Shown here one piece after another: positions 16,163 to 27,663 of a DNA stretch of 64,000 nucleotides. Every line of letters starts with the position of its first letter. Within the stretch, counting starts at the first letter, position 1. The translations under genes and the position numbers were made by a program. The stretch comes from Arthrobacter terricola. GTDB lineage: Bacteria > Actinomycetota > Actinomycetes > Actinomycetales > Micrococcaceae. The stretch is taken from NCBI RefSeq assembly GCF_004354015.1, contig NZ_SMRU01000015.1:62001-126000 (forward strand), written 5' to 3'. The notes beneath the pieces are model-generated. The model ran no database searches. It was not told where the DNA came from and saw nothing but the letters and a program-made list of their open reading frames with translations.

Positions 16163-17251
16163 GTGCTCCACATTGGAGTTGACAGCACCAAGTTCTCCGA
16201 AGCCGGCGACGAACCAGCGTTCAAAATGCTGGAGCGTTCGGCCGGGCTAGGCCTCGACGGCGTCTTCTTCCGGTCCATCCTGGAACTCAGCCCCACCCTG
16301 GACCAAACCGAGATCGAAGAGTCGATGCAGGCAGCCCGCGAGCTCGGCCAGCGGGTCGAAGCCGGGGTGGGGAAAGTGAACCCGTTCGCTACCCCGGAAG
16401 CGCCCCGGATCCGGGCATTGGGCGACGGCGATTACCTGCTGGCAATGCGGAAAATGATCGAAGCCGCTGCCAAGGGCGGCATCCACGAACTGTGGAGCGC
16501 CACGGCAAATTACCAGTTCCGGCTATCGGGTCTCTACGCGTGCGACCGGTTCAGAACGGACGTGGATTGGAGCGAACAACTCACCGCAACCGCGAAGTTC
16601 CTGCACCGGCTCGCCCCGATCCTCCGCGACAACGCGACGCACTTGAACCTGGAAACCCACGAGGAAATCACCACGTTCGAACTCGTCCGCCTCGTCGAAG
16701 AGGTCGGTCCTGACGTCCTCGGCATCACCTTCGACTCGGCCAACGTCCTGGTCCGTTGCGAAGACCCGATAGCCGCGGTGCGCCGCGCGGCCCCCTACAT
16801 CCGCTCGAGCCACATCAGGGACGCCGCACTTTTGTTCAGGCCGGACGGGATCGCGCGCATCCTGGCACCCGTGGGCGACGGGGTCATCGATTGGGAGCTG
16901 TTCCTGGAGCCCATCCTGGACCACGACCTCATGCTTTCCATCGAAGGCATCGTCGAAAGCACCCGCGGCGAGATGACCCTCAACATCTACGACGAGCGCT
17001 GGCAACGGGGACACCCGGACCTGGCGCTCGCCGAAGCGTTTGAGGTCATCCGGCTCGCGAGTACCTACGAGTCCCGGGCGGCATCGGGCGAACTTCCCAC
17101 CTGGGACGAGCTCCATGCGCCGCTCGGTCCGGACGAATCACTTCACTTCATCGAGCGCAGCGCCCGGCACCTCCGCGAGGTCATCGGGCGGCTCACACCA
17201 TCACAAAACACGGAAAGGCAGGAACCAGAAAATGGAAAATACCCTCAGTGA
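16163..17251 (+). CDS. sugar phosphate isomerase/epimerase-like TIM barrel, copy 2
   Basis: A 362-residue paralogue of the 13631 gene. The ligands are Glu164 (NLETHEEI), Asp191 (TFDSAN), His217 (SSHIRDA) and Glu261 (SIEGIVE). It begins with GTG 6 nt after the oxidase stop. The C-terminal 20 codons overlap the start of the M24-like gene and look lower in complexity (PSQNTERQEPENG), suggesting that the end of this gene has been extended or is unstructured. Retention of all four ligands in both copies suggests that both are active and act on related substrates, or form a hetero-oligomer. The reaction is not assignable from sequence alone. Confidence 0.85.
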   Translation: MLHIGVDSTKFSEAGDEPAFKMLERSAGLGLDGVFFRSILELSPTLDQTEIEESMQAARELGQRVEAGVGKVNPFATPEAPRIRALGDGDYLLAMRKMIEAAAKGGIHELWSATANYQFRLSGLYACDRFRTDVDWSEQLTATAKFLHRLAPILRDNATHLNLETHEEITTFELVRLVEEVGPDVLGITFDSANVLVRCEDPIAAVRRAAPYIRSSHIRDAALLFRPDGIARILAPVGDGVIDWELFLEPILDHDLMLSIEGIVESTRGEMTLNIYDERWQRGHPDLALAEAFEVIRLASTYESRAASGELPTWDELHAPLGPDESLHFIERSARHLREVIGRLTPSQNTERQEPENGKYPQ

Positions 17252-18473
17252 AGCGTTGCGGGGCTACCCCACTTTGAGCCTCAAGGAGCGGGACCGCCGG
17301 TGGGCCTCGGTCCGCGGGCTGCTCGAGCGCGAAGGGCTCGACGGCGTTGTCGTGTTCGGTTCGGGGCGCGACAATGCGGACGCGTACCTCACGAACGAGG
17401 CCAAAGGCGCGATCGTGCTCCTTACCCCGGAGGACGACCCCGTCCTCTTCCTGGGCGACGTACCGCTCAACCGTTTCGACGCCCAGGCTTCCCGGTGGGA
17501 ACGGTGGGTGGACGAATGGGTGCACGGCGAGCCGATCTCGGCACTCGCGTCCCGCATCAGGGAACGGGGCCTCGGGAAGGCGCGGCTCGGCGTCGTCGGC
17601 CTCACGAGCCGCATGGTCGGCGAATGGGCGGGCACCATCTCACACACCACGTGGACGCGCGTCCTCTCTGAACTGCCCGACGTCGAATGGGCCGATGTCG
17701 CCGACGCCTACGAATCCATCGCTATCATCAAGAGCCCGGAAGAACAGGTCTTGCTGCGGAGAGCTGCGGCCCTGGGCGAGGAGGCTTGCCGCGCGTTCGT
17801 CGAGACCGCGAGGGCAGGTGGCAACGAGCACCAGATCGCCGCAGCCTCGTTCCACGCGATCATTGCCGGCGGAGGCTGGGTCCGGTGGCCGTTCATGCTC
17901 GAACGCGCCGGTGAGAGCATGTTCGCCTGGTCGGTCCCGGAATGGTTCGAGAGTGGCGGGGCTCCGCGCATCCTGCGGCCTGGCGACACCATCGCGGCCG
18001 AGATCTTCGCGTTCTACGGCGGCATGGAGTCCCAGCAGCAGATCGATGTTTGCGTCGGCGAGCCGAGCGCTTTGCTCCGCGAACTCGAGTCCGTGTGCGT
18101 GGACTCCTACCAAGCCGGTCTGGCTGCGCTCAAACCAGGAATGCGTTTCTCTGAACTCGCGAAGATCATGGAGGAGCCCCTGCATAGCTCAAAGACCTGG
18201 AACACGGGACCGATGGTCCAGACCGTCTCGCCCATCTACAACAGCGCAACCCGCCTCCATCCGGAAGTGGATCCCGCACTGTCCCGCCTGGAACAGCTGC
18301 CGTCGGGCGTAGGCCTGGACGGGGACTTCGTCATCGAGCAAGGGCACGCATTCGCCTTCGAACCGAACGCCCTCCGCGACGGCCAGCGCGTGTGCATTGG
18401 CGGAACCGTTCTGCTTGGGCCGAACGGTCCGGAAGAACTCAACAGCATCCCGAACCGCCTGAATGTCATCTGA
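17232..18473 (+). CDS. M24 (creatinase/prolidase fold) protein with degenerate metal site
   Basis: A 413-residue protein. It has the N-terminal creatinase domain (residues 1-165, with VVVFGSGRDNADAYLTN) and the C-terminal pita-bread domain. Of the five metal ligands (D, D, H, E, E) of M24 peptidases, the first Asp position reads Glu (IAAEIFAF), the second reads Gln (ESQQQID), and the last Glu is Gly (VCIGGTVLL). Only the Glu in FAFEPNA is kept; I cannot place the His. A metallopeptidase is therefore unlikely. Creatinase itself uses this fold without metal to hydrolyse a C-N bond, and that is the better model. The ATG at 17232 is chosen for MENTLSEALRGYPTLS; the open frame upstream belongs to the previous gene. 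Confidence 0.8.
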   Translation: MENTLSEALRGYPTLSLKERDRRWASVRGLLEREGLDGVVVFGSGRDNADAYLTNEAKGAIVLLTPEDDPVLFLGDVPLNRFDAQASRWERWVDEWVHGEPISALASRIRERGLGKARLGVVGLTSRMVGEWAGTISHTTWTRVLSELPDVEWADVADAYESIAIIKSPEEQVLLRRAAALGEEACRAFVETARAGGNEHQIAAASFHAIIAGGGWVRWPFMLERAGESMFAWSVPEWFESGGAPRILRPGDTIAAEIFAFYGGMESQQQIDVCVGEPSALLRELESVCVDSYQAGLAALKPGMRFSELAKIMEEPLHSSKTWNTGPMVQTVSPIYNSATRLHPEVDPALSRLEQLPSGVGLDGDFVIEQGHAFAFEPNALRDGQRVCIGGTVLLGPNGPEELNSIPNRLNVI

Positions 18474-18491
18474 CCGAACCACGTGTTCGGG

Positions 18492-18531
18492 AGCCCGTCC
18501 GGCAGCCCTATTCGAGGCGGCCGGGCGGGCT
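18492..18531 (+). terminator. terminator between the M24-like gene and the RpiR gene
   Basis: A 12-bp stem (AGCCCGTCCGGC at 18492-18503 with GCCGGGCGGGCT at 18520-18531, one G-T pair) with a 16-nt loop is followed by TTTG. It lies in the 92-nt gap between convergent genes and ends the long island operon. Confidence 0.7.
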
Positions 18532-18565
18532 TTGCGCTGTGTTGGGCAGGCTGGGGCACTCCGGA

Positions 18566-19432
18566 CTAGCGGCCCAGGTCTCCGTTGTCGATTTCACCAA
18601 GAACTTCGTAAGCCTCGGCCACTTTCAACACACTGCGCTCCCCGCGCGGGTGGAGGTGTTCGAGCACCCCGTCGGTGATTTGGGTGCATGCGCTCATCGC
18701 CGCCGCATAGCTGTCGAACGCGCCCACGCCGTCGATCGGGCAATCGACCCAAATGTCCGCGAATTGCGCGTACCGGCGAGCGGTGGAATCGGCGATCAGT
18801 ATGTTCTTCGCGCCCGTAGTAGGCAGGAACCGCATGATGTCGCCGAACCCGGACACCCGCCGTCGGAAGCCGACGACGACCACTACGTCTCCGGCGCCCA
18901 CGTGGACAAGTTCCTCGCCCAATGACTGGCCAGGCTGCGGTGCGAGCACCACCCTGGCACGCACTTGGGCGAGGGACTCCCGCAGGCGCATGGCAACGGG
19001 GTACCCGGTGCGGAAGCCGATAATGAGCACGTTCCCTGCGGAGGCGAGCGCTTCGCTGATGTCGGTGAGCAGGCTCCCTTGAAGCTGCTCGCTGACGCGC
19101 CGGAGGTTTTCGACTTCCAGTTTGAATCTCTCGGTGCCGTCAACGGGCGAGGGCGCTACCCCGAGGGGGATGCCGCGGCCACGGAGCGTACGAAGGTGGT
19201 CTTTGACCTCGGCGAAGTCTTCGAAGCCCAAAGCGGAGAACAGCCGGCTCACTGTTGCCGGCGAAGTGCCGCTCATCCGGGCGAGTTGGGAAACGCTATA
19301 CGTTCCAATGTCTCCCAGGTTGTCCAGCACGATGTCCGCCACCCGCTGCGCACGGGGTGGAAGCGTCGCATACACCGAATCGATCCTGGCGTAGATCGAG
19401 CCTTGGTCGTTCCCGTCTGCCGGATCCTGCAT
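18566..19432 (-). CDS. RpiR/MurR-family regulator (HTH_6 + SIS)
   Basis: A 288-residue regulator. An N-terminal HTH_6 domain (about residues 12-85, with SVSQLARMSGTSPATVSRLFSALGF) is followed by a SIS sugar-phosphate-binding domain (about 115-260, with VLIIGFRTGYPVAMRLRES and DVVVVVGFRRR). The ATG at 19432 is preferred over the one at 19456 because GGGAGGAAC lies just before it. The gene is divergent from the MFS/racemase/DUF6282 operon, and twin GATGA-N10-TCATC sites lie in the gap. RpiR proteins usually sense phosphorylated sugars or sugar acids. It could also influence the island to its left, with which it is convergent. Confidence 0.9.
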   Translation of the reverse strand: MQDPADGNDQGSIYARIDSVYATLPPRAQRVADIVLDNLGDIGTYSVSQLARMSGTSPATVSRLFSALGFEDFAEVKDHLRTLRGRGIPLGVAPSPVDGTERFKLEVENLRRVSEQLQGSLLTDISEALASAGNVLIIGFRTGYPVAMRLRESLAQVRARVVLAPQPGQSLGEELVHVGAGDVVVVVGFRRRVSGFGDIMRFLPTTGAKNILIADSTARRYAQFADIWVDCPIDGVGAFDSYAAAMSACTQITDGVLEHLHPRGERSVLKVAEAYEVLGEIDNGDLGR

Positions 19433-19549
19433 CGCCCTGTTCCTCCCCTGCCCCATATGCCGATCAACAATAGCCCACGATCGAGGGTGAACCCGTCCGG
19501 ACCCCGGCCACGCCGAGGGCTTGCGCTATCGACTCCACCCTGCCAGACT

Positions 19550-19569
19550 GATGAAACAAATTGATCATC
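19550..19569. promoter_or_regulatory. operator candidate, GATGA-N10-TCATC (site 1)
   Basis: An inverted repeat with arms GATGA (19550-19554) and TCATC (19565-19569) and a 10-nt A/T-rich centre. It has exactly the same geometry as the second site 29 bp downstream. Confidence 0.6.
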
Positions 19570-19578
19570 TTTGATTTA

Positions 19579-19598
19579 GATGAAAAAAACCATTCATC
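19579..19598. promoter_or_regulatory. operator candidate, GATGA-N10-TCATC (site 2)
   Basis: A second inverted repeat with the same arms and the same 10-nt spacer, whose left part again reads GATGAAA. It lies 93 nt upstream of the MFS start. Two copies in an otherwise GC-rich intergenic region next to an RpiR gene make it a likely binding site. Confidence 0.6.
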
Positions 19599-19690
19599 AT
19601 TCAGCTCTCTCCGCTTCCGGATCCCCCGGCCGGCCACCCCTCCCGGCCACACCAACATGCGTTCCAATTCATGGAAATCAAGGAGCAACG

Positions 19691-21058
19691 ATGCCCCACC
19701 CCGATCCCTCGCCCCTCCCCGAAACCTCAACCCTCGAAGACCGCAACCGAACCTTCAAGCGGGTTGTCCTACGAATCCTCCCCTTCGCAACACTCATCTA
19801 CGTCCTGGCATGGCTTGACCGGGTCAATGTCGGATTCGCCAAACTGACCATGCTCGACAACCTCGGCTGGAACGAGGCCATCTACGGCGCCGGCGCAGGA
19901 ATTTTCTTCCTCGGCTACTTCCTGTTCGAAGTTCCCAGCAACCTGCTGCTCCAGAAAATCGGGGCACCCAAGACGATCATGCGGATCGGCATCGGGTGGG
20001 GCGTGGTTTCCGTTCTCATGGCCTTCTGTACCGAGGCCTGGCACTTCTACGTCCTCCGGTTCCTGCAAGGCGCGTTCGAAGCCGGACTCCACCCCGGGCT
20101 CATCCTCTATCTGACGTTTTGGCTTCCGGCACATCGCAGGTCCAGGGCCATAGCCATATTCATGTCCGCCTCACCCATAGCCCTCCTGGTAGGCAGCCCC
20201 CTCGCCGCCTACATCATGACAAGCACTAACGGAATGCTGGGGGCAGCGGACTGGCAATGGCTCTTCATGATCGAAGGCTTCCCGTCAATCATCCTCGGCA
20301 TCCTCGCCGTCTTCGTCATGACCGCCAAACCAAGCAGCGCCAAGTGGCTCAGCAAGGAAGAACAGGCCCACGTCGCCTACGAACTGGACAAGGAATCCGC
20401 CGAACAAAGCCACCGTGAACACCGGTTCAGCGCCGCCCTCCGCTCCAAATCCGTGTGGATACTCATCCTCACACTGTTCTGCATCATCACAGGAAACGCT
20501 ACGCTCTCCTTCTACGGTCCAAGCCTGATCACCGCAGCCGGTTTCACCGACATCACCTCGGTGGGATGGATCATGTCCGGAATCTTCCTGTTCGGATGGA
20601 TCGGCATGATGGTCAACGGCTGGCTGTCCGACCGACGCCAGGAATCACGCTGGCACACCGCCTGCGCCGCCGCCCTGGGCGCCCTCGGCCTGATCCTCGC
20701 CGCCATCGCACAACAAGCCGCAAGCCCCGTAGGGGTCGTCCTCGCCCTCGCACTCTCTGCCGCAGGGACCATGGGCTCGATCCCCGTCTTCTGGAGCCTG
20801 CCGCCGCGCTTCATGTCCGGCACGGCACTAGCCGCCGGACTCGCGCTCATCAACTCCATCGCAAACCTGGCCGGCTACTTCGCTCCCCAGTTCCTCGGCG
20901 TGATCAAGACAACCACCGGTGTCTATTCAACGGGCCTGTACATCATCGCGGCCGTCGAGTCCATAGCCGTGGTGCTCGTGCTGCTCTGCATCCGCAAGCA
21001 GTCTCCCGGCATCCCCGGCGGGGTCAACGCCACCATCCCATCAGAAATCGGCTCCTAA
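19691..21058 (+). CDS. MFS transporter, anion:cation symporter type
   Basis: A 455-residue 12-helix MFS permease. The sequence FATLIYVLAWLDRVNVGFAKL in helix 1 and the LLQKIGAPKTIMRIGIGWG loop are typical of the ACS (phthalate/tartrate/allantoate permease) branch, which imports organic anions with protons. The ATG at 19691 has AAGGAG 5 nt upstream; an open frame from 19580 would run through both operator candidates and is rejected. It is followed by the racemase-like gene, and the three genes of this arm probably form one unit for uptake and breakdown of an organic acid or cyclic amide. Confidence 0.88.
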   Translation: MPHPDPSPLPETSTLEDRNRTFKRVVLRILPFATLIYVLAWLDRVNVGFAKLTMLDNLGWNEAIYGAGAGIFFLGYFLFEVPSNLLLQKIGAPKTIMRIGIGWGVVSVLMAFCTEAWHFYVLRFLQGAFEAGLHPGLILYLTFWLPAHRRSRAIAIFMSASPIALLVGSPLAAYIMTSTNGMLGAADWQWLFMIEGFPSIILGILAVFVMTAKPSSAKWLSKEEQAHVAYELDKESAEQSHREHRFSAALRSKSVWILILTLFCIITGNATLSFYGPSLITAAGFTDITSVGWIMSGIFLFGWIGMMVNGWLSDRRQESRWHTACAAALGALGLILAAIAQQAASPVGVVLALALSAAGTMGSIPVFWSLPPRFMSGTALAAGLALINSIANLAGYFAPQFLGVIKTTTGVYSTGLYIIAAVESIAVVLVLLCIRKQSPGIPGGVNATIPSEIGS

Positions 21059-21119
21059 GCGAGCCGAAACCGCGTCCAGACCAAACCGCCGTCATCAAGG
21101 AAAGGAGGTAGATCGAGTA

Positions 21120-21791
21120 GTGGGTCCACTCCTCCTGATCAACCCAAACACCAGCAAGCCAACAACCATCGAAATGGTGGACGTCGCCCGCGCCGCCGCG
21201 ACCAACCACGAGGCGATAATCGGCGCAACAGCGCTTCGAGGCTCTGACCTGATCGACGACGACGGCAAGCTGGCAACCGCCGCCGAGGCCGTCGTCGAAC
21301 TCGCACAGTCGCTGGAACTCGCGCCATACCAAGGCATCATCGTTTCGGCTTTCGGCGATCCCGGCGTCGAAGAGCTTCGCCGCCGGGTTCCGGTGCCCGT
21401 CACCGGAATCGCCGAGGCCGGGATCTTCGAAGCCGCACGGGAAGGCCGACGCTTCTCCATCGTCACCACCACGCCCAGGCTGGCTTCCGCCATCAACGGA
21501 AGAGTGGCCGAGTACGGCTTCGGCGACCTCTACACGGGCCTGCGCCTGACCGAAGGGAATCCTGCCGAAATCATGAAAGATGCCGTTCTGCTGGAAGAGA
21601 GCCTTTCACAGGCCTGCGAGATCGCCTTGGTGGAGGACGCCGCCGAAGCGATCGTCATTGGCGGGGGCCCCTTGGCGCTGTCCGCTGTCGCATTGCGGCG
21701 ACGATTCCCCGTTCCCATCATCGAGCCGGTCCCTGCAGCCGTGCGCCTGGCTCTGGCCAGGGCGGCGCGGCACGAATCGCTAATGATCTAG
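21120..21791 (+). CDS. Asp/Glu/hydantoin racemase-family protein lacking both catalytic cysteines
   Basis: A 223-residue protein with the pseudo-symmetric racemase fold: LLLINPNTSKPTTIEM at the start, SAFGDPGVEEL, TGIAEAGIFEA, and AIVIGGGPLA. In hydantoin and allantoin racemases and in maleate isomerase the two catalytic bases are Cys, in CFGDPG and GCAG contexts. Here these positions are Ala77 and Gly182, and the only Cys (166) is elsewhere. Two-base racemisation by the known mechanism is therefore not possible. The protein may bind a ligand, catalyse a decarboxylase-like reaction (arylmalonate decarboxylases keep one Cys), or use other residues. GTG start with AAAGGAGGT at 21101-21109. Confidence 0.8.
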   Translation: MGPLLLINPNTSKPTTIEMVDVARAAATNHEAIIGATALRGSDLIDDDGKLATAAEAVVELAQSLELAPYQGIIVSAFGDPGVEELRRRVPVPVTGIAEAGIFEAAREGRRFSIVTTTPRLASAINGRVAEYGFGDLYTGLRLTEGNPAEIMKDAVLLEESLSQACEIALVEDAAEAIVIGGGPLALSAVALRRRFPVPIIEPVPAAVRLALARAARHESLMI

Positions 21792-21850
21792 ACCAACCCC
21801 TGAGCGCCTTCCCAGCGCATCAACCAACCCAAGAAAGAGGAGAAAGCTAC

Positions 21851-22936
21851 GTGACGATCACAAGCGAACCCATCTCGAGCCTCGCCGAAGGGACAGCCGA
21901 AAGCCTGGGCATCGGAGCATCGCTTCCCCGCGAGACCTTTGACCACAGATCGATGGAACTTCCGGATGAACTGATCCGGGGAACCAGCGACGTCCACGTC
22001 CACAGCGGTCCATGGCTCCAGTCCTGCCCCGGCCGGCTCGATCCCTTCCAGATCGCGGAACAGGCCAAAGCCGCCGGAATGAAGTCCCTGGTCTTCTACG
22101 ATCACACCCTGGGCATCAGTACCGGCACGGCCCAGTTGGCGAGCCGGCAGGTTACAGGAATCAACATCTTCGGCGGGATCATCCTCACGAGCGTCCTGGG
22201 CGGACTCAATCCGCGCGCCGTGAAAACAGCGCTGCATTACGGTTCCGGAGCGAAATTCGTCCACTTCGGCGCTCACTGCACCCACTACATGGTCACGCAC
22301 GAAGGCAGCTTCGTTGACGGCAAACCAGTGCGGTTCGTGGACCAATACCCCAAATTCGCGCAGGACGAGCTGCCACGTGCAATCCGGATCCCGCTTGACG
22401 GATCCGTCCCGTCGGAACTGGTTGAAATCCTTGGATTGATCTCCGAACGTCCGGATGTGCACTTGAACACGGGCCATTTGTCCGTGGATGAAGCGATCCG
22501 CCTGGTCGACCTTGCCATCGGTTTCGGAATCAAGAAGATCGTGGTGGCGCACCCTTGCCGGGCACGCATGACGACGGAGCAGCAGAAAGAACTCGCACAA
22601 AAAGGCGTGCTTCTTGAAGGAGCAGTTTCCGACTGGATGTTCCACCGGGGACTGCGGAGGACCAACTACTACGTGGAGCGTGAATTGGCGGACGAGATCG
22701 CCGGCATCGCGAGCACCCCGGAACTCAGCGCCGGCGTGGTTCCCTGGGCAAAGCAAATCAGGGACATCGGCGTCGAACATTTCCTCCTTGGCACGGACTA
22801 CGGAATCCGCTCCGGGCCCACGCCGGTGGAGGGAATGCGCACCCTGATCAGCACGCTGCTCGACTTGGAGTTCACGTCCGAGGAAATCCACACGTTGACC
22901 AAGTCCAACGCGGACTGGCTCTTCGACCTGGACTGA
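21851..22936 (+). CDS. DUF6282 family, metal-dependent amidohydrolase-like protein
   Basis: A 361-residue protein with the metal-site pattern of amidohydrolase/PHP-like TIM barrels: SDVHVHSG (residues about 47-54), FGAHCTHY, HLNTGHLS, VVAHPCR and FLLGTDYG. I recognise it as the DUF6282 type, for which no reaction is known to me. The GTG start is preceded by GAGGAG. It is the third gene of the MFS / racemase-like / hydrolase arm. A likely role is hydrolysis of a cyclic amide, imide or lactone delivered by the MFS protein, but that rests only on the fold and neighbours. Confidence 0.78.
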   Translation: MTITSEPISSLAEGTAESLGIGASLPRETFDHRSMELPDELIRGTSDVHVHSGPWLQSCPGRLDPFQIAEQAKAAGMKSLVFYDHTLGISTGTAQLASRQVTGINIFGGIILTSVLGGLNPRAVKTALHYGSGAKFVHFGAHCTHYMVTHEGSFVDGKPVRFVDQYPKFAQDELPRAIRIPLDGSVPSELVEILGLISERPDVHLNTGHLSVDEAIRLVDLAIGFGIKKIVVAHPCRARMTTEQQKELAQKGVLLEGAVSDWMFHRGLRRTNYYVERELADEIAGIASTPELSAGVVPWAKQIRDIGVEHFLLGTDYGIRSGPTPVEGMRTLISTLLDLEFTSEEIHTLTKSNADWLFDLD

Positions 22937-23020: not shown

Positions 23021-24544
23021 TCAGTCCTGGAAGTACTCGATCCTCGCGCCGATGGTGTTGAGCCGCTCGGCGAGGTCCTCGTACCCACGCTCGATCACGT
23101 AGATGTTGCGCAGCTCGGAGGTACCCCGGGCTGCCAGCATCGCGAGCAAGAGGCACGCGGCGGGGCGGAGGGCCGGCGGGCAGCCGACTTCCGCGCCACG
23201 CCACTTGGTTGGCCCGTTGACATAGATGCGGTGCGGATCGAGCAGCTGCACCTGGGCGCCGAGCTTGTTGAGTTCGGTCAAGTAGATCGCCCGGTTCTCG
23301 TAGACCCAGTCGTGGATCATGGTCTGGCCCTCGGCGTTGCCGGCGATCACTGCAAAGAACGGCAGGTTGTCGATATTGAGCCCGGGGAAGGGCATCGGGT
23401 GGATCTTGTCTTCCGGCGCGTGGAGACGTGACGGCCTGGTGGTGACGTCCACGAGGCGCGTGCGCCCGTTGCGGGCAAAGTACTCACCGGAGATGTCCAA
23501 TTGCTGGCCCATCTGCTCGAGGGTGGCCAGCTCGATTTCCATGAACTCAATGGGGACGCGGCAAACGGTGACCTCCGAATTGGTCACGATTCCCGCGGTG
23601 ATGAGGCTCATGGCCTCGATCGGGTCTTCGGACGGGAAGTACTCGATGTCGACGTCGATCGCCGGCCTTCCGGTGATGCGCAGCGTAGTGGTGCCGACGC
23701 CGTCGATCACCACGCCGAGCCCCTGCAGGTAGAAGCACAGGTCCTGAACCATGTAATTCGGGCTGGCGTTGCGGATCACGGTAGTTCCGCTGCGGTGCGC
23801 GGCGGCCATGATGGCGTTTTCCGTCACGGTGTCTCCGCGCTCGGTGAGCACGAAGGTGCGGTTGTCGCCGTCGGCCGGTGGTGCCTGCACGGAATAGAAG
23901 CCGGATTTCGCTTCCACCGAAAGCCCGAACTGCCGCAGCGCTTGCATGTGCGGTTCCACGGTCCGTGTTCCGAGGTCGCATCCGCCGGCGTAGGGCAAGC
24001 GGTACGAGGCGGCCTCGTCCAGGAGGGGGCCAAGCAGCATGATGACGCTGCGCGTGCGGCGGGCAGCCTCGACGTCCATGGAAGCGAGGTCCAGCATTTC
24101 CGGACGGCGGATCCGAAGGTCGTTGCCGTTGAGCCACGTACATTCGACGCCGATGGAGGTCAGTACCTCGACGATCCGGTTGACCTCCTCGATCCGCGCG
24201 AGCTTGCGGAGTGTGGTGGTTCCGCGGTTAATGAGGCTCGCGCACAACAGGGCGACGCCGGCATTCTTGCTGCTGTTGACGTCCACGGATCCGGACAACG
24301 TCCGTCCGCCCTCGACGCGCAAGTGGGTCATCTGCGGCCGGCCGACCTTGACGATGGTCCGGCCGAAGATCGTCTCAAGGCGTTCGATCATGCGCAGGCT
24401 CAAATTCTGCCTTCCCTGCTCCATCCGGGCGATCGCGCTTTGGCTGGTGCCCAGCTCCGAGGCAAGCTGTCCCTGCGTCCAGCCTTTCTCGCTCCGTGCA
24501 TCGCGAAGAAGGAGGCCTACGTGTTCAGCAGTGGGTTGCGTCAT
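23021..24544 (-). CDS. HTH (XRE) - MurA fusion (UDP-GlcNAc 1-carboxyvinyltransferase-like)
   Basis: A 507-residue protein. Residues about 6-60 are a Cro/XRE helix-turn-helix (LRDARSEKGWTQGQLASELG, TSQSAIARMEQGRQ). Residues about 72-505 are an EPSP/MurA two-lobed enolpyruvyl transferase. Key MurA residues are present: Lys93 (VNSSKNAG, equivalent to K22) and the active-site loop Cys189 (YAGGCDLGTRTVEPH). Asp in FPGLNIDNLPFF fits D305. The transferase therefore looks competent: PEP plus UDP-GlcNAc, the first step of peptidoglycan synthesis. Normal MurA is about 420 residues without HTH. The ATG at 24544 is chosen, with a TTG two codons earlier possible; a -10 box 11 nt before the ATG suggests a very short leader. 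Confidence 0.87.
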   Translation of the reverse strand: MTQPTAEHVGLLLRDARSEKGWTQGQLASELGTSQSAIARMEQGRQNLSLRMIERLETIFGRTIVKVGRPQMTHLRVEGGRTLSGSVDVNSSKNAGVALLCASLINRGTTTLRKLARIEEVNRIVEVLTSIGVECTWLNGNDLRIRRPEMLDLASMDVEAARRTRSVIMLLGPLLDEAASYRLPYAGGCDLGTRTVEPHMQALRQFGLSVEAKSGFYSVQAPPADGDNRTFVLTERGDTVTENAIMAAAHRSGTTVIRNASPNYMVQDLCFYLQGLGVVIDGVGTTTLRITGRPAIDVDIEYFPSEDPIEAMSLITAGIVTNSEVTVCRVPIEFMEIELATLEQMGQQLDISGEYFARNGRTRLVDVTTRPSRLHAPEDKIHPMPFPGLNIDNLPFFAVIAGNAEGQTMIHDWVYENRAIYLTELNKLGAQVQLLDPHRIYVNGPTKWRGAEVGCPPALRPAACLLLAMLAARGTSELRNIYVIERGYEDLAERLNTIGARIEYFQD

Positions 24545-24555
24545 AACCAAGGAAT

Positions 24556-24593
24556 ATCATAAATGATCTACACGCCCGGCATTATGTGATCTA
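24556..24593 (-). promoter_or_regulatory. promoter and candidate autoregulatory repeats of the HTH-MurA gene
   Basis: Read on the minus strand, a -10 box TATGAT lies at 24561-24556. TAGATCA occurs twice as a direct repeat (24593-24587 and 24570-24564, 23 bp apart), each followed by an AT-rich stretch ending in ATG or ATGAT. The second copy overlaps the -10 box. An XRE regulator often binds repeats over its own promoter, so autoregulation by the fused HTH is plausible. Confidence 0.45.
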
Positions 24594-24644
24594 ACACGCC
24601 GATACAGCCGGACCGTAGTCACTTCGTGCGATAAAACTGAGGCC

Positions 24645-25448
24645 CTATCCCTGCTTAAGCCACACGAAGTGCCAGGTCCCGGCCCATTGGGCGGCAAGCA
24701 TGGCGGCACCAGCGAGGACTGCCCCGCCCACCAGGACCCACGCGTCCAGGCGGCTATACGTGGATTCGCGGGCCCATGTCCGCTGGCCGCCGCTGAATCC
24801 GCGCGCCTCCATGGTCACCGCCAGGCGGGAAGCCCGCCGGATCGCCTGGACCAGCAACCCGAAGCTCTGGCCAAGCATCGCCTTGAAGCGTTGGACCGGA
24901 CTTCCATGCGATCCGACACCACGCGCGCGACGCGCCATGCCGATGGTCTGCCACTCCTCCGCCACAAGGCCGACCAGCCTCAGCGCGGCCAAGGTCCCCA
25001 GCACAAAACGGTGCGGGAGCTTCGCCTTTTGCGCCAAAGCGTCGGCGAGGTCGGTGGGATCGGTGCAGCTCATAAGGAGGACGGCCGGCAAAGCGATCGC
25101 CAGGCCCCGCAGCATGAACCCGAGGCCCAGCGTGAGCGAGCCTTCGCTGATCGACCAGATTCCGACATCGAGAAACACCCTGCCGCTATTTGCCGAAAGG
25201 ATCGCTGTGCTCCAGCCACCGAAGGCCGCCGCGATGATGAGCGGCCATCCGCGCTGCCACAAGAGGCGCAAAGTGAGGCCCGCCAAAGGGAACAACGCCA
25301 GCTCACCGAGGAGGGCGGTTGACGCCGAAACCAAGTCGATGGACAACGCCAGCACGAGGGTCACCAGGAAGACGGCGACGAATTTCGCCAGCGGGTTCGC
25401 TCGGGTCAGGAGCGCGTTGTTGCCGCGCAGGTTCAGTTCTTGCCTCAT
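24645..25448 (-). CDS. ykoC: ECF transporter T component (YkoC-like)
   Basis: A 267-residue membrane protein, the energy-coupling scaffold of an ECF vitamin transporter. It has about five helices and the EcfT coupling motifs, two Ala-Arg-Gly type signatures: MARRARGVGSHGSP and TMEARGFSGGQR. The start is ATG at 25448 (MRQELNLRGNNALL); the much longer open frame upstream lies inside the ATPase gene. It is the last gene of the TPP-riboswitch operon and overlaps the ATPase stop by 4 nt. With the ATPase fusion and the YkoE-type S component it forms a YkoEDC system for hydroxymethylpyrimidine, a thiamine precursor. Confidence 0.88.
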   Translation of the reverse strand: MRQELNLRGNNALLTRANPLAKFVAVFLVTLVLALSIDLVSASTALLGELALFPLAGLTLRLLWQRGWPLIIAAAFGGWSTAILSANSGRVFLDVGIWSISEGSLTLGLGFMLRGLAIALPAVLLMSCTDPTDLADALAQKAKLPHRFVLGTLAALRLVGLVAEEWQTIGMARRARGVGSHGSPVQRFKAMLGQSFGLLVQAIRRASRLAVTMEARGFSGGQRTWARESTYSRLDAWVLVGGAVLAGAAMLAAQWAGTWHFVWLKQG

Positions 25449-27034
25449 GCCGCTCCAGCTTTCTGTCGCGGCCCCTGAAAGGCAGCTTCGAGCCGCATCT
25501 CGGTTCCGCCCAGAACGGACGTGAACTCCCGGTCGTGGGTCACGGAAACCACCGAGGTTCCGGCGTCGAGCAGTTCGGAGAGGAAGGATGCGAGTTCGGC
25601 CCACGTGTTGGCGTCCTGGCCGAAGGTCGGTTCGTCGAGCACCAGGACGCGGGGGTGCGCGGCGAGCACGGTAGCGACGGACAGCCGGCGCTTTTCGCCC
25701 CCGGAGAGCGTGTATGGGTTGGCGTCCACGAGGTGGCCCAAACGCAGCCGCTCGAGCAATTCGTCCACGCGGTCCTCGCCGTGGCCCAGGTGCTTTGGCC
25801 CGAACATGAGCTCGTCCAGCACGCGACCGGTCACGAATTGATGCTCGGGCTCCTGGAACACGGTCCCGATCCGCGAGATCAACTGTTGGGCTTTCCATTT
25901 GAACGGATCGGTGCCGGCACCGTCACTGAGCCCGACGGCGGCACTCAGGGTTCCGGACACGGGCGCCAACAGACCGGCCAGGGTCAAGGCGAAGGTCGAT
26001 TTCCCCGCGCCGTTGGCGCCGGTGACGGTGAGCGCCTGGCCCGCCAGCACATCGGCGTCGAGACCCGACTGCACGGGGACAGGCGGAATGGTCTTAAATC
26101 CGCGGCGGCGTGCTGGTTCACGTGAAACCGCGAGGTCCCGGGCGCTCAGCAGGACTTCGTCCCCTGCCGTCGATCCGGAACCCACGGATGCCGAGCGCGC
26201 ACGGGTGGCGGGAATGTAGCCGGGCACCCACACGCCGGCAGCAATGAGCATGTCCCTCGCTTGCGCCAGCACGGCGTCAGGCGCGCCGTCGAGCAGGACG
26301 GCTGGCGTCGAACCGCTTTCGGAAGTATTGCCTGGCTGGAGGACCACGATCCGGTCCACAAGGTCTTTCCATACGGACACCCGGTGTTCAACCACCACAA
26401 GGGTGGCTCCGGTCTTGTCCAGGCAACGGCCCACTGCATCCCGGACTTCCAGCACGCCGGCCGGGTCCAAGTTGGCGGTCGGCTCGTCCAGGAGGATCAG
26501 CCCGGGGCGCATCGCGAGGATCCCGGCGAGCGCGAGCCGCTGCTTCTGCCCGCCGGACAGGGCCGACGTCGGGTGGTCCAGCGCAAAACCGTCGCCCGCG
26601 CTGCTCTTCAGCCCGACGTCGTCGAGCGCTTCATGGACGCGCTTCCAGATTTCCCCCCGAGGCACCCTGAGGTTTTCCGCACCGAAGGCGACGTCGTCAC
26701 CCAAGCGGGACAGGACCACTTGGGTTTCCGGGTCCTGCTGCATGAGCCCGGCCCTCCCGCGACGGGCGCGCGGCGACTCGCCGTCCACCAGCAGCGAGCC
26801 GGTTTCGTCGGCGTCGTCGCCTTCCTCGCCAAGGACACCGGCAAGGGCGTGCAGGAGCGTCGATTTGCCCGCACCCGATGGTCCAAGCAATAGGACCCGC
26901 TCGCCCGGACGAATGTCCAGGTCCAGGGCGTGGATGGCCTGCGTGGCGCGGCCCGAATGCCGCCAACCCCAACCTTGTGCGGAAATGGCGGCGGGTCGCA
27001 CCACGGCAGCGGTGCCGGAATCAGGACTGGGCAT
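25445..27034 (-). CDS. ykoD: ECF transporter ATPase, two fused ATP-binding domains (YkoD-like)
   Basis: A 529-residue fusion of two ABC ATPases. The first half has GPSGAGKST, LSGGQKQR and LILLDEPTANLDP; the second half has GANGAGKST, LSGGEKRR and VLVLDEPTFG. A Ser/Thr/Gly-rich linker (around SASVGSGSTAGDE) joins them. This fused form is characteristic of YkoD. The ATG at 27034 (MPSPDSGTAAVV) overlaps the stop of the S component by one base; the upstream extension of the frame is a shadow. It hydrolyses ATP to power uptake through the T and S components. Confidence 0.92.
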   Translation of the reverse strand: MPSPDSGTAAVVRPAAISAQGWGWRHSGRATQAIHALDLDIRPGERVLLLGPSGAGKSTLLHALAGVLGEEGDDADETGSLLVDGESPRARRGRAGLMQQDPETQVVLSRLGDDVAFGAENLRVPRGEIWKRVHEALDDVGLKSSAGDGFALDHPTSALSGGQKQRLALAGILAMRPGLILLDEPTANLDPAGVLEVRDAVGRCLDKTGATLVVVEHRVSVWKDLVDRIVVLQPGNTSESGSTPAVLLDGAPDAVLAQARDMLIAAGVWVPGYIPATRARSASVGSGSTAGDEVLLSARDLAVSREPARRRGFKTIPPVPVQSGLDADVLAGQALTVTGANGAGKSTFALTLAGLLAPVSGTLSAAVGLSDGAGTDPFKWKAQQLISRIGTVFQEPEHQFVTGRVLDELMFGPKHLGHGEDRVDELLERLRLGHLVDANPYTLSGGEKRRLSVATVLAAHPRVLVLDEPTFGQDANTWAELASFLSELLDAGTSVVSVTHDREFTSVLGGTEMRLEAAFQGPRQKAGAA

Positions 27035-27663
27035 CAGGAAAAGACGGACTCCGAAGCGGCCTTGCGGGACGCGAAGGCGCTCAAGACGCCCGTCTTTGCC
27101 AGGCCACGGGTGGCGATCCAGGCCAGGGCGCCGGCGATTACCGCACCGGAGACCGTGCACAACGCGATGTACGCGAGCTTGTCAACGGGTTCGTAGGCAA
27201 TGTTCCAACCCCACGGGAGGAAGGAGTCGTTGAGTCCGCAGAACAGGCCAGCGCCTGCCCCGGCCAGCAACGAAACGGGCAAGTTGAACTTCTTGTACAC
27301 AAAGGCAAGGAAAATCAGCTCGGCGCCGAGACCCTGCAGGACGCCCGAGATCAGCACCGTGGTGCCGTACTGGGAGCCCATGAAGAGTTCGCTCGTGGCC
27401 GCGACTGTCTCACAGAAGATGGCCGCGCCGGGCTTGCGGACGATCAGCATGCCAAGGATGGCCGGAATCATCCAGCCGCCGGCGATGATGCCGGACAGGG
27501 GCGGGTAGGAAGCGCTCATCGGTGTGGCAACCAAGGCCATCTGGTCCCATGCCCAGAAGATCACGCCGCCGGCGATGGAAATCAGCGCAGCCACGACGAT
27601 GTCGACGACGCGCCAGCTGTAACCGGGCTTTTTGATGCCCGGCCTTGCAGAAACACCAGTCAT
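27034..27663 (-). CDS. ykoE: ECF transporter S component, YkoE family (hydroxymethylpyrimidine)
   Basis: A 209-residue membrane protein with about five or six helices. The segments WRVVDIVVAALISIAGGVIF, GGWMIPAILGMLIVRKPGAA and SQYGTTVLISGVLQGLGAEL are typical of YkoE. An AGGAGG site 5 nt before the ATG gives strong initiation. It lies directly downstream of a TPP riboswitch, which supports a thiamine-precursor substrate (HMP) over other vitamins. First gene of ykoEDC. Confidence 0.9.
   Translation of the reverse strand: MTGVSARPGIKKPGYSWRVVDIVVAALISIAGGVIFWAWDQMALVATPMSASYPPLSGIIAGGWMIPAILGMLIVRKPGAAIFCETVAATSELFMGSQYGTTVLISGVLQGLGAELIFLAFVYKKFNLPVSLLAGAGAGLFCGLNDSFLPWGWNIAYEPVDKLAYIALCTVSGAVIAGALAWIATRGLAKTGVLSAFASRKAASESVFS

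Follow-up and report, generated by a model that had tools for sequence, protein, structure and literature searches.

An XRE helix-turn-helix domain fused to a MurA-type enolpyruvyl transferase in actinomycetes, with a conserved palindromic site at its own promoter

PutA, BirA and NadR are enzymes that bind DNA and control genes of their own pathways, and to our knowledge none of the three is an enzyme of peptidoglycan precursor synthesis. The protein described here resembles them in a general way, as a candidate self-controlling enzyme. Control of the entry into peptidoglycan synthesis is described, in one account, as post-translational on MurA, for example through PASTA-kinase signalling (PMC12077105). 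A comparable domain layout is that of BzdR, which combines an XRE helix-turn-helix (HTH) with a shikimate-kinase-like domain; there the enzyme fold serves as the effector domain, its catalysis has been lost, and the protein controls benzoate genes (PMC3602430). The fusion presented here likewise places an HTH before a metabolic enzyme fold, but unlike BzdR it keeps its catalytic residues and has its own gene as its sole clear predicted target; it is similar in layout, and we do not class it with BzdR.

The Streptomyces orthologue of the fusion is probably murA2 (SCO5998, sven5810/vnz_28735), judged by neighbourhood, since 7 of the 10 Streptomyces loci among the 80 best of at least 590 family loci have a gene for aconitase on its upstream side (Pfam-checked for L067), just as SCO5999, which encodes AcnA, adjoins SCO5998 (MurA2) in the available text of PMC12161575. 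Two of the three aconitase-less Streptomyces loci have short flanks, and one Janibacter locus has an aconitase gene on the other side of the fusion. The accessible passages name Streptomyces MurA2 as one of a pair of UDP-GlcNAc transferases. Footprints of BldM-WhiI lie on its promoter (PMC4125116), its transcription is SigB-dependent (PMC8346170), a DmdR1 site is predicted at the promoter (PMC12161575), and the phenotype of whiI overexpression is not reproduced by overexpression of murA2 (PMC11005364), all according to the available parts of these papers. Those same parts of PMC4125116, PMC8346170 and PMC12161575 treat murA2 purely as the gene of a regulated enzyme and mention neither an HTH nor the palindrome described below, and those of PMC11005364 mention no HTH. 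An XRE-MurA fusion is described in no title or abstract among the open-access matches listed, which is weak evidence of novelty because most subscription journals and bioRxiv lie outside that search.

The window that we analysed is a stretch of 64,000 nucleotides from Arthrobacter terricola, and the features discussed below are collected in Table 1. The fusion gene encodes 507 amino acids followed by a stop, with its ATG at 24544 and its stop codon at 23023-23021; the plus strand, read in the corresponding frame, contains a stop. The original prediction had the extent of the gene right, and its strand is minus.

Table 1. Positions in the window of the fusion gene, its domains and residues, and the two operator-like sites
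Feature	Positions	Strand	Evidence
XRE-MurA fusion gene	23021..24544	-	Open frame and translation; 80 relatives kept by genome scan
XRE-type helix-turn-helix codons (residues 9-64)	24353..24520	-	Pfam HTH_31 and HTH_3 above cut-off
MurA-type enolpyruvyl transferase codons (residues 72-507)	23024..24331	-	Pfam EPSP_synthase; NCBIfam PRK09369.1; Foldseek
Cys189 codon (E. coli Cys115, catalytic/fosfomycin Cys)	23978..23980	-	Alignment with E. coli MurA; 91/91 have Cys
G237-D238-T239 codons, in place of E. coli Ser162-Val163-Gly164	23828..23836	-	GDT in 91/91
Proximal operator-like site TAGATCATTTATGATATT	24553..24570	-	Ends 8 nt before ATG; imperfect palindrome, 10/14 consensus positions
Distal site TATCGCACGAAGTGACTA	24616..24633	-	63 bp upstream of proximal site

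Pfam places HTH_31 at residues 9-62 (E 3.3e-13), HTH_3 at residues 13-64 (E 1.4e-11) and EPSP_synthase at residues 77-495 (E 4.4e-46). Among the NCBIfam models, the fusion passes the cut-off of PRK09369.1 (320.7 versus 297) and falls below those of the murA model TIGR01072 (309.6 versus 392.7) and of PRK12830.1 (218.2 versus 552). AlphaFold models the chain with overall confidence (mean pLDDT 88.1, pTM 0.81), and the model is weak at residues 66-70, which form the linker, and 188-193, which form the Cys loop. In a Foldseek comparison with solved structures, rows 1-43 are MurA, rows 44-45 are NikO, and AroA follows. The Pfam domains and the recurrence of the arrangement in relatives confirm the expected layout, an XRE HTH fused N-terminally to a MurA-type enzyme. 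The fusion is not a product of chance, since it recurs at 65-97% identity in all 80 loci kept by the genome scan (the best 80 of at least 590).

The enzyme domain shares with standard MurA, represented by E. coli b3189 and by the HTH-less MurA of the same genome (L002), its fold, its PEP site and the catalytic Cys, Lys, Asp and Arg residues. On alignment to E. coli MurA, K93 corresponds to K22, C189 to C115 and D392, in the NIDN motif, to D305, which bears out the positions given in the original prediction, while R165, R194, R418, R460 and R486 match R91, R120, R331, R371 and R397. We aligned 91 family members (80 from the genome scan, 10 from a phylum sample, and P0001; L095, the split gene of G139, was omitted), and the residues corresponding to E. 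coli K22, N23, R91, C115, R120, D231, D305, R331, R371 and R397 are identical in all of them, including the Cys at the fosfomycin site, whose retention had been claimed. The description of the transferase as intact-looking therefore holds for the catalytic and PEP-site residues; it fails at SVG, replaced by GDT, and at D369, replaced by P, in every member. P121 is likewise replaced by T and F328 by Y in 91/91, and with the added HTH these changes set the fusion apart from standard MurA, to which it is about 27-29% identical; L002 retains SVG and D369. Sensitivity to fosfomycin, which the original prediction expected from the kept Cys, is possible, but the UDP-phosphate motif departs from that of standard MurA. 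Residues 162-164 of MurA belong to the biphosphate-binding region in the available text of PMC8698320. Because GDT and P stand in place of SVG and D369 in 91/91, the family is, on this alignment, a divergent MurA-type subfamily and not a standard MurA; these replacements, taken alone, would suggest a different substrate.

Of the best 80 of at least 590 loci, 79 are labelled actinomycetes and one is labelled Sporosarcina beigongshangi. The copy in this last genome is 80% identical to that of the window and has Arthrobacter-type neighbours; a mislabelled record or a faulty assembly is probable. A sample of the phylum comprised 296 genomes, 26 of them from the window's class; all strong matches (11 intact, 1 split) belong to these 26, with none in the other 270. 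Within that class, a profile built from the enzyme domain only finds the family in 114 of 394 genomes (111 unbroken, 3 split), with a wide gap between the family and the next matches. Split genes, in two frames or pieces, occur in G139, G571 and G479, through sequencing error or decay. On plasmids there are 131 matching records, of which only two exceed 60% identity, both actinobacterial.

The HTH accompanies the enzyme domain throughout. When members lacking it were sought with the enzyme-domain profile, all 111 unbroken frames proved to be at least 510 amino acids long, enough for an HTH. The HTH pattern is found in 91/91 aligned members and in 30/30 loci chosen by the enzyme domain alone; five of these loci duplicate members of the 91, which leaves 116 distinct proteins, all with the HTH, so the notion that it might be degenerate in relatives is false. 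In a tree of 46 rows, the 20 fusion members form a single, fully supported branch with a long stem (2.39), separate from the L002 type; the tree program flags long branches meeting, and no use is made of the sister group of the fusion clade.

The genome of the window contains three PF00275 genes, namely an AroA-like gene (L001), an HTH-less MurA of 441 amino acids (L002) and the fusion, and a second, HTH-less murA is thus present there. The converse possibility, that the fusion is the only murA, is false in this genome but applies to 24 of 50 genomes (among them Nocardioides, Aeromicrobium and Janibacter), in which AroA is the sole other PF00275 gene. The 24 comprise 15 of 32 genomes searched with PF00275, partly picked for having a single match in the class sample, and 9 of the 19 genomes reached from named loci (four each of Aeromicrobium and Nocardioides, and one Janibacter); the two sets share one genome, entered as G500 and G668 and the same by coordinates, and the fraction of a non-random set such as this is not a prevalence. 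MurB was found in 24/24 of these genomes. Within one family of the class sample (f8) the fusion is the single match in 33 of 36 genomes, in a search that scored at most four candidates per genome, and 9 of the 33 were rechecked with PF00275. Among the 19 genomes, a further MurA is present in addition to the fusion in those of Arthrobacter, Sinomonas, Brachybacterium, Oerskovia, Pedococcus and Streptomyces jeddahensis. Since the fusion is the only MurA in 24 of 50 genomes, and all 24 have MurB, the enzyme is probably active, and in these 24 it must be the working enzyme unless they hold a MurA that is not recognised as such.

Upstream of the start codon, an 18-bp palindromic site with the consensus TATCTCA-N4-TGAGATA recurs across the family. 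In the window, TAGATCATTTATGATATT has a single match at up to 3 mismatches, where 0.00 are expected. Scored at 14 consensus positions, all 91 family promoter regions reach 9 and 52 reach 12, versus 286 and 8 of 7653 stretches of 130 bp drawn at random from these loci; the loci picked by enzyme domain all score at least 12 (30/30). Members without Ala39 in the HTH score strongly, and those with Ala39 score 9-13. For 7 of the 91, all of them Ala39 members, the best consensus match lies away from the proximal position; in this group the candidate site is supported by a conserved right half, TGATATW, and by its position, rather than by the palindrome.

Searches of whole genomes place the site mostly at this one promoter. 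Of 9 genomes whose intact family gene is of the non-Arthrobacter type, 8 have the exact core ATCTCAN4TGAGAT at the promoter of that gene (G182 is the one without). Elsewhere the core occurs once in G161 and once in each of two family-less genomes, in these two with a GC-rich centre; a reversed control pattern has no match in the same genomes. With up to 2 mismatches allowed, 34 of 36 genomes (26/28 and 8/8 Streptomyces-like) have the site at the family promoter, and in 20 of the 36 it is unique to that promoter. G543 and G533 carry the fusion gene with no site at its promoter at up to 2 mismatches, which counts against autorepression; they belong to the 16 of 36 genomes with extra sites, which are the only such sites these two have. 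The 28-genome set contains 10 extra sites versus 5 matches of the reversed control pattern, and of its 20 site loci that are comparable, 3 are also in the motif set. Every Streptomyces-like genome (8/8) has at least one further site at up to 2 mismatches, which again tells against autorepression, with 2 matches of the reversed pattern in the 9 genomes of that search; a regulon search in Streptomyces and relatives found the extra sites to be few and, except for one, non-recurrent. In the window's own genome a relaxed Arthrobacter-type pattern has 7 matches at 2 mismatches, one of them this promoter, and the control has 0; the Arthrobacter motif, as read from these counts, is too weak for excluding other targets.

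Of the 45 members that lack Ala39, 44 have a T four bases past the site, which completes a TAnnnT sequence overlapping it, and in 37 of the 45 the distance from the site to the first in-frame start codon is 10-11 nt. This spacing fits the -10 element of a leaderless transcript, and a protein bound there would cover the promoter. The Ala39 members number 46 (43 of the Arthrobacter group and three others); their start codon lies 8-9 nt past the site in 30/46 and a T two bases past it in 26/46, and their putative -10 element is less clear than that of the members without Ala39. In the window the site itself is imperfect (10/14) and its promoter has no clear TAnnnT at the expected place, both points against autorepression, and a scan of 24500-24800 for sigma-70-type promoters and terminators found 0.

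The half-sites vary with residue 39 of the HTH, which, as in the 434 and P22 repressors, would sit at a base-contacting position. Asn39 goes with the right half TGAGATA in 30/37 members and Thr39 with TGAGTTA in 3/3; the five His39 members have TGAGTTA in three cases and TGAGATA in two; and among Ala39 members TGAGATA is found in 0/46 and TGATATW in 41/46. One locus (L055) has both an altered helix, TTQSVVN, and a symmetrically altered site, TATCGCA-N4-TGCGATA. These counts ignore kinship, the residues are confounded with lineages, and the sites were chosen by a score that favours the right halves TGAGATA and TGATATW; with that said, such co-variation matches what direct recognition predicts.

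In the Arthrobacter group there is a second site. A distal element, mostly TATCGCA, occurs upstream of the proximal site in 41 of 46 Ala39 members, at 62-64 bp in 31 and at 71-74 bp in 10 (two of these ten, both Sinomonas, are doubtful), and is absent in 5/46 by the patterns used. These distances, the only ones seen, correspond to roughly six or seven DNA turns. Outside the Arthrobacter group no second site rises above background, save one 10/14 match (L069). The phasing suggests cooperative binding on one helix face, or a loop.

The best explanation, which we consider probable, is that the fusion is a working MurA2-type UDP-GlcNAc enolpyruvyl transferase that would also be the ligand-modulated autorepressor of its own gene. 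What comes from the sequences is the fusion, its clade, the conservation of HTH and operator, the co-variation of the two, and the existence of genomes with this site only or with this MurA only; from these we infer DNA binding, repression rather than activation, catalysis and ligand control. In the proposed mechanism, the N-terminal XRE domain would bind the 18-bp site, probably as a dimer, and thereby block RNA polymerase at the overlapping -10 element of what looks like a leaderless promoter. Occupancy of the enzyme domain, by substrates, by the PEP adduct on Cys189 or by the inhibitor UDP-MurNAc, would most plausibly alter binding by the HTH, and the level of MurA could in this way track the demand for precursors. 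Ligand control is suggested by the conformational change that MurA undergoes on substrate binding and by the presence, among the Foldseek structures, of complexes with UDP-MurNAc and Cys-PEP (titles of 3swd, 3su9 and 8d84). In the Arthrobacter group the distal site, which lies upstream by six or seven helical turns, may allow cooperative binding or a loop, and in Streptomyces BldM-WhiI and SigB would be layered over autorepression. The link between enzyme and gene expression in the original prediction is likely, given a conserved HTH and a promoter site that differs with it. Its target is more likely to be the fusion's own promoter than a group of cell-wall genes: at up to 2 mismatches, 34 of 36 genomes have the site there, and 20 of the 36 have it at no other place. 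The replacement of SVG and D369 and the shortfall against TIGR01072 count against a working MurA that represses itself, as do the seven Ala39 members whose best consensus match is not proximal and, in the available accounts, the action of BldM-WhiI and SigB on the Streptomyces promoter. A bolder picture, of an enzyme becoming a regulator while still active, in which the only MurA of Nocardioides, Aeromicrobium and Janibacter represses its own gene and the loop in Arthrobacter relies on two phased operators, is tentative, and we lean somewhat against it.

The same observations can be read in other ways. The protein might be a regulator only, whose MurA domain has lost catalysis and acts as a ligand-binding sensor like the shikimate-kinase domain of BzdR, and the family-wide loss of SVG and D369, the long stem branch and the further MurA in Arthrobacter, Sinomonas, Brachybacterium, Oerskovia and Streptomyces genomes would all suit this; however, Lys93, Arg165, Cys189, Arg194, Asp392 and Arg486 are invariant in 91/91, and the genomes with no other MurA all have MurB, which makes it unlikely as a general account, though it could be true in genomes with another MurA. 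We think it very improbable that the fusion is instead an enolpyruvyl transferase for another acceptor, as NikO is in nikkomycin synthesis, and not a peptidoglycan enzyme: the replaced UDP-diphosphate motif and the structural kinship with NikO are offset by MurB in genomes without any other MurA-type gene, and by the fact that all 43 Foldseek rows above NikO are MurA.

Two further alternatives concern the site rather than the enzyme. If the palindrome belonged to a different regulator, the HTH would be a structural or interaction domain, and other regulators do act, or are predicted to act, at the Streptomyces promoter in the available text of PMC4125116, PMC8346170 and PMC12161575; but the site accompanies the fusion gene despite changed neighbourhoods, is nearly unique in each genome and varies with HTH residue 39, and we give this reading little credence. 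It is also improbable that the protein regulates envelope genes more broadly in response to wall precursors or fosfomycin, the kinds of signal that the original prediction named. The extra sites in 16 of 36 genomes are what such a regulator would leave, whereas 20 of the 36 have no second site, the 10 extra sites of the 28-genome set compare with 5 control matches, and the one recurrent extra site in Streptomyces, TATCTCGATGTCGAGATA, has a different core.

Should autorepression by a working MurA be correct, the first step of cell-wall synthesis may set its own production, a one-protein solution different from post-translational control and spread over a wide group of actinomycetes, and a MurA inhibitor could alter the expression of its own target. 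It would also be a natural counterpart of the synthetic BzdR-type 'missing link' in the available text of PMC3602430.

The genes around the fusion do not hint at a signal. Neighbours were clustered, from crude gene calls, around the best 80 of at least 590 loci; they differ among lineages, and a conserved gene partner was therefore rejected. The absence of a conserved neighbour among the 80 loci counts against autorepression. Loci of the Arthrobacter group share an ECF-transporter neighbourhood and other lineages have mostly other genes. In the window, ECF-type transporter genes lie upstream of the fusion at 24645-27663 (CbiQ, a two-domain ATPase and a PF09819 permease, by Pfam), with relatives in 22-36 of the 80 loci, all in the Arthrobacter group. 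On the other side, at 17040-22936, is a catabolic-looking group of an M24 peptidase, an RpiR-type regulator, an MFS transporter, a member of the Asp/Glu/hydantoin racemase family and a DUF6282 protein; in relatives this side holds mostly other genes. The DUF6282, racemase and MFS neighbours were rejected as an explanation of the fusion because the neighbourhoods vary across the 80 loci.

The palindrome TATCTCGATGTCGAGATA, whose core is not that of the family site, lies about 0.7-5 kb upstream of the fusion in 8/8 Streptomyces-like genomes (G023, G107, G128, G161, G171, G182, G193 and G246), on the same side as the aconitase gene of the 7 Streptomyces loci, and occurs in G630 on a different contig. 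A different regulator may bind there, TamR being one candidate. Among the HTH-less MurA genes of the phylum sample (L096-L113), 10 of 18 have Asp at the position of the fosfomycin Cys, a residue that predicts natural fosfomycin resistance.
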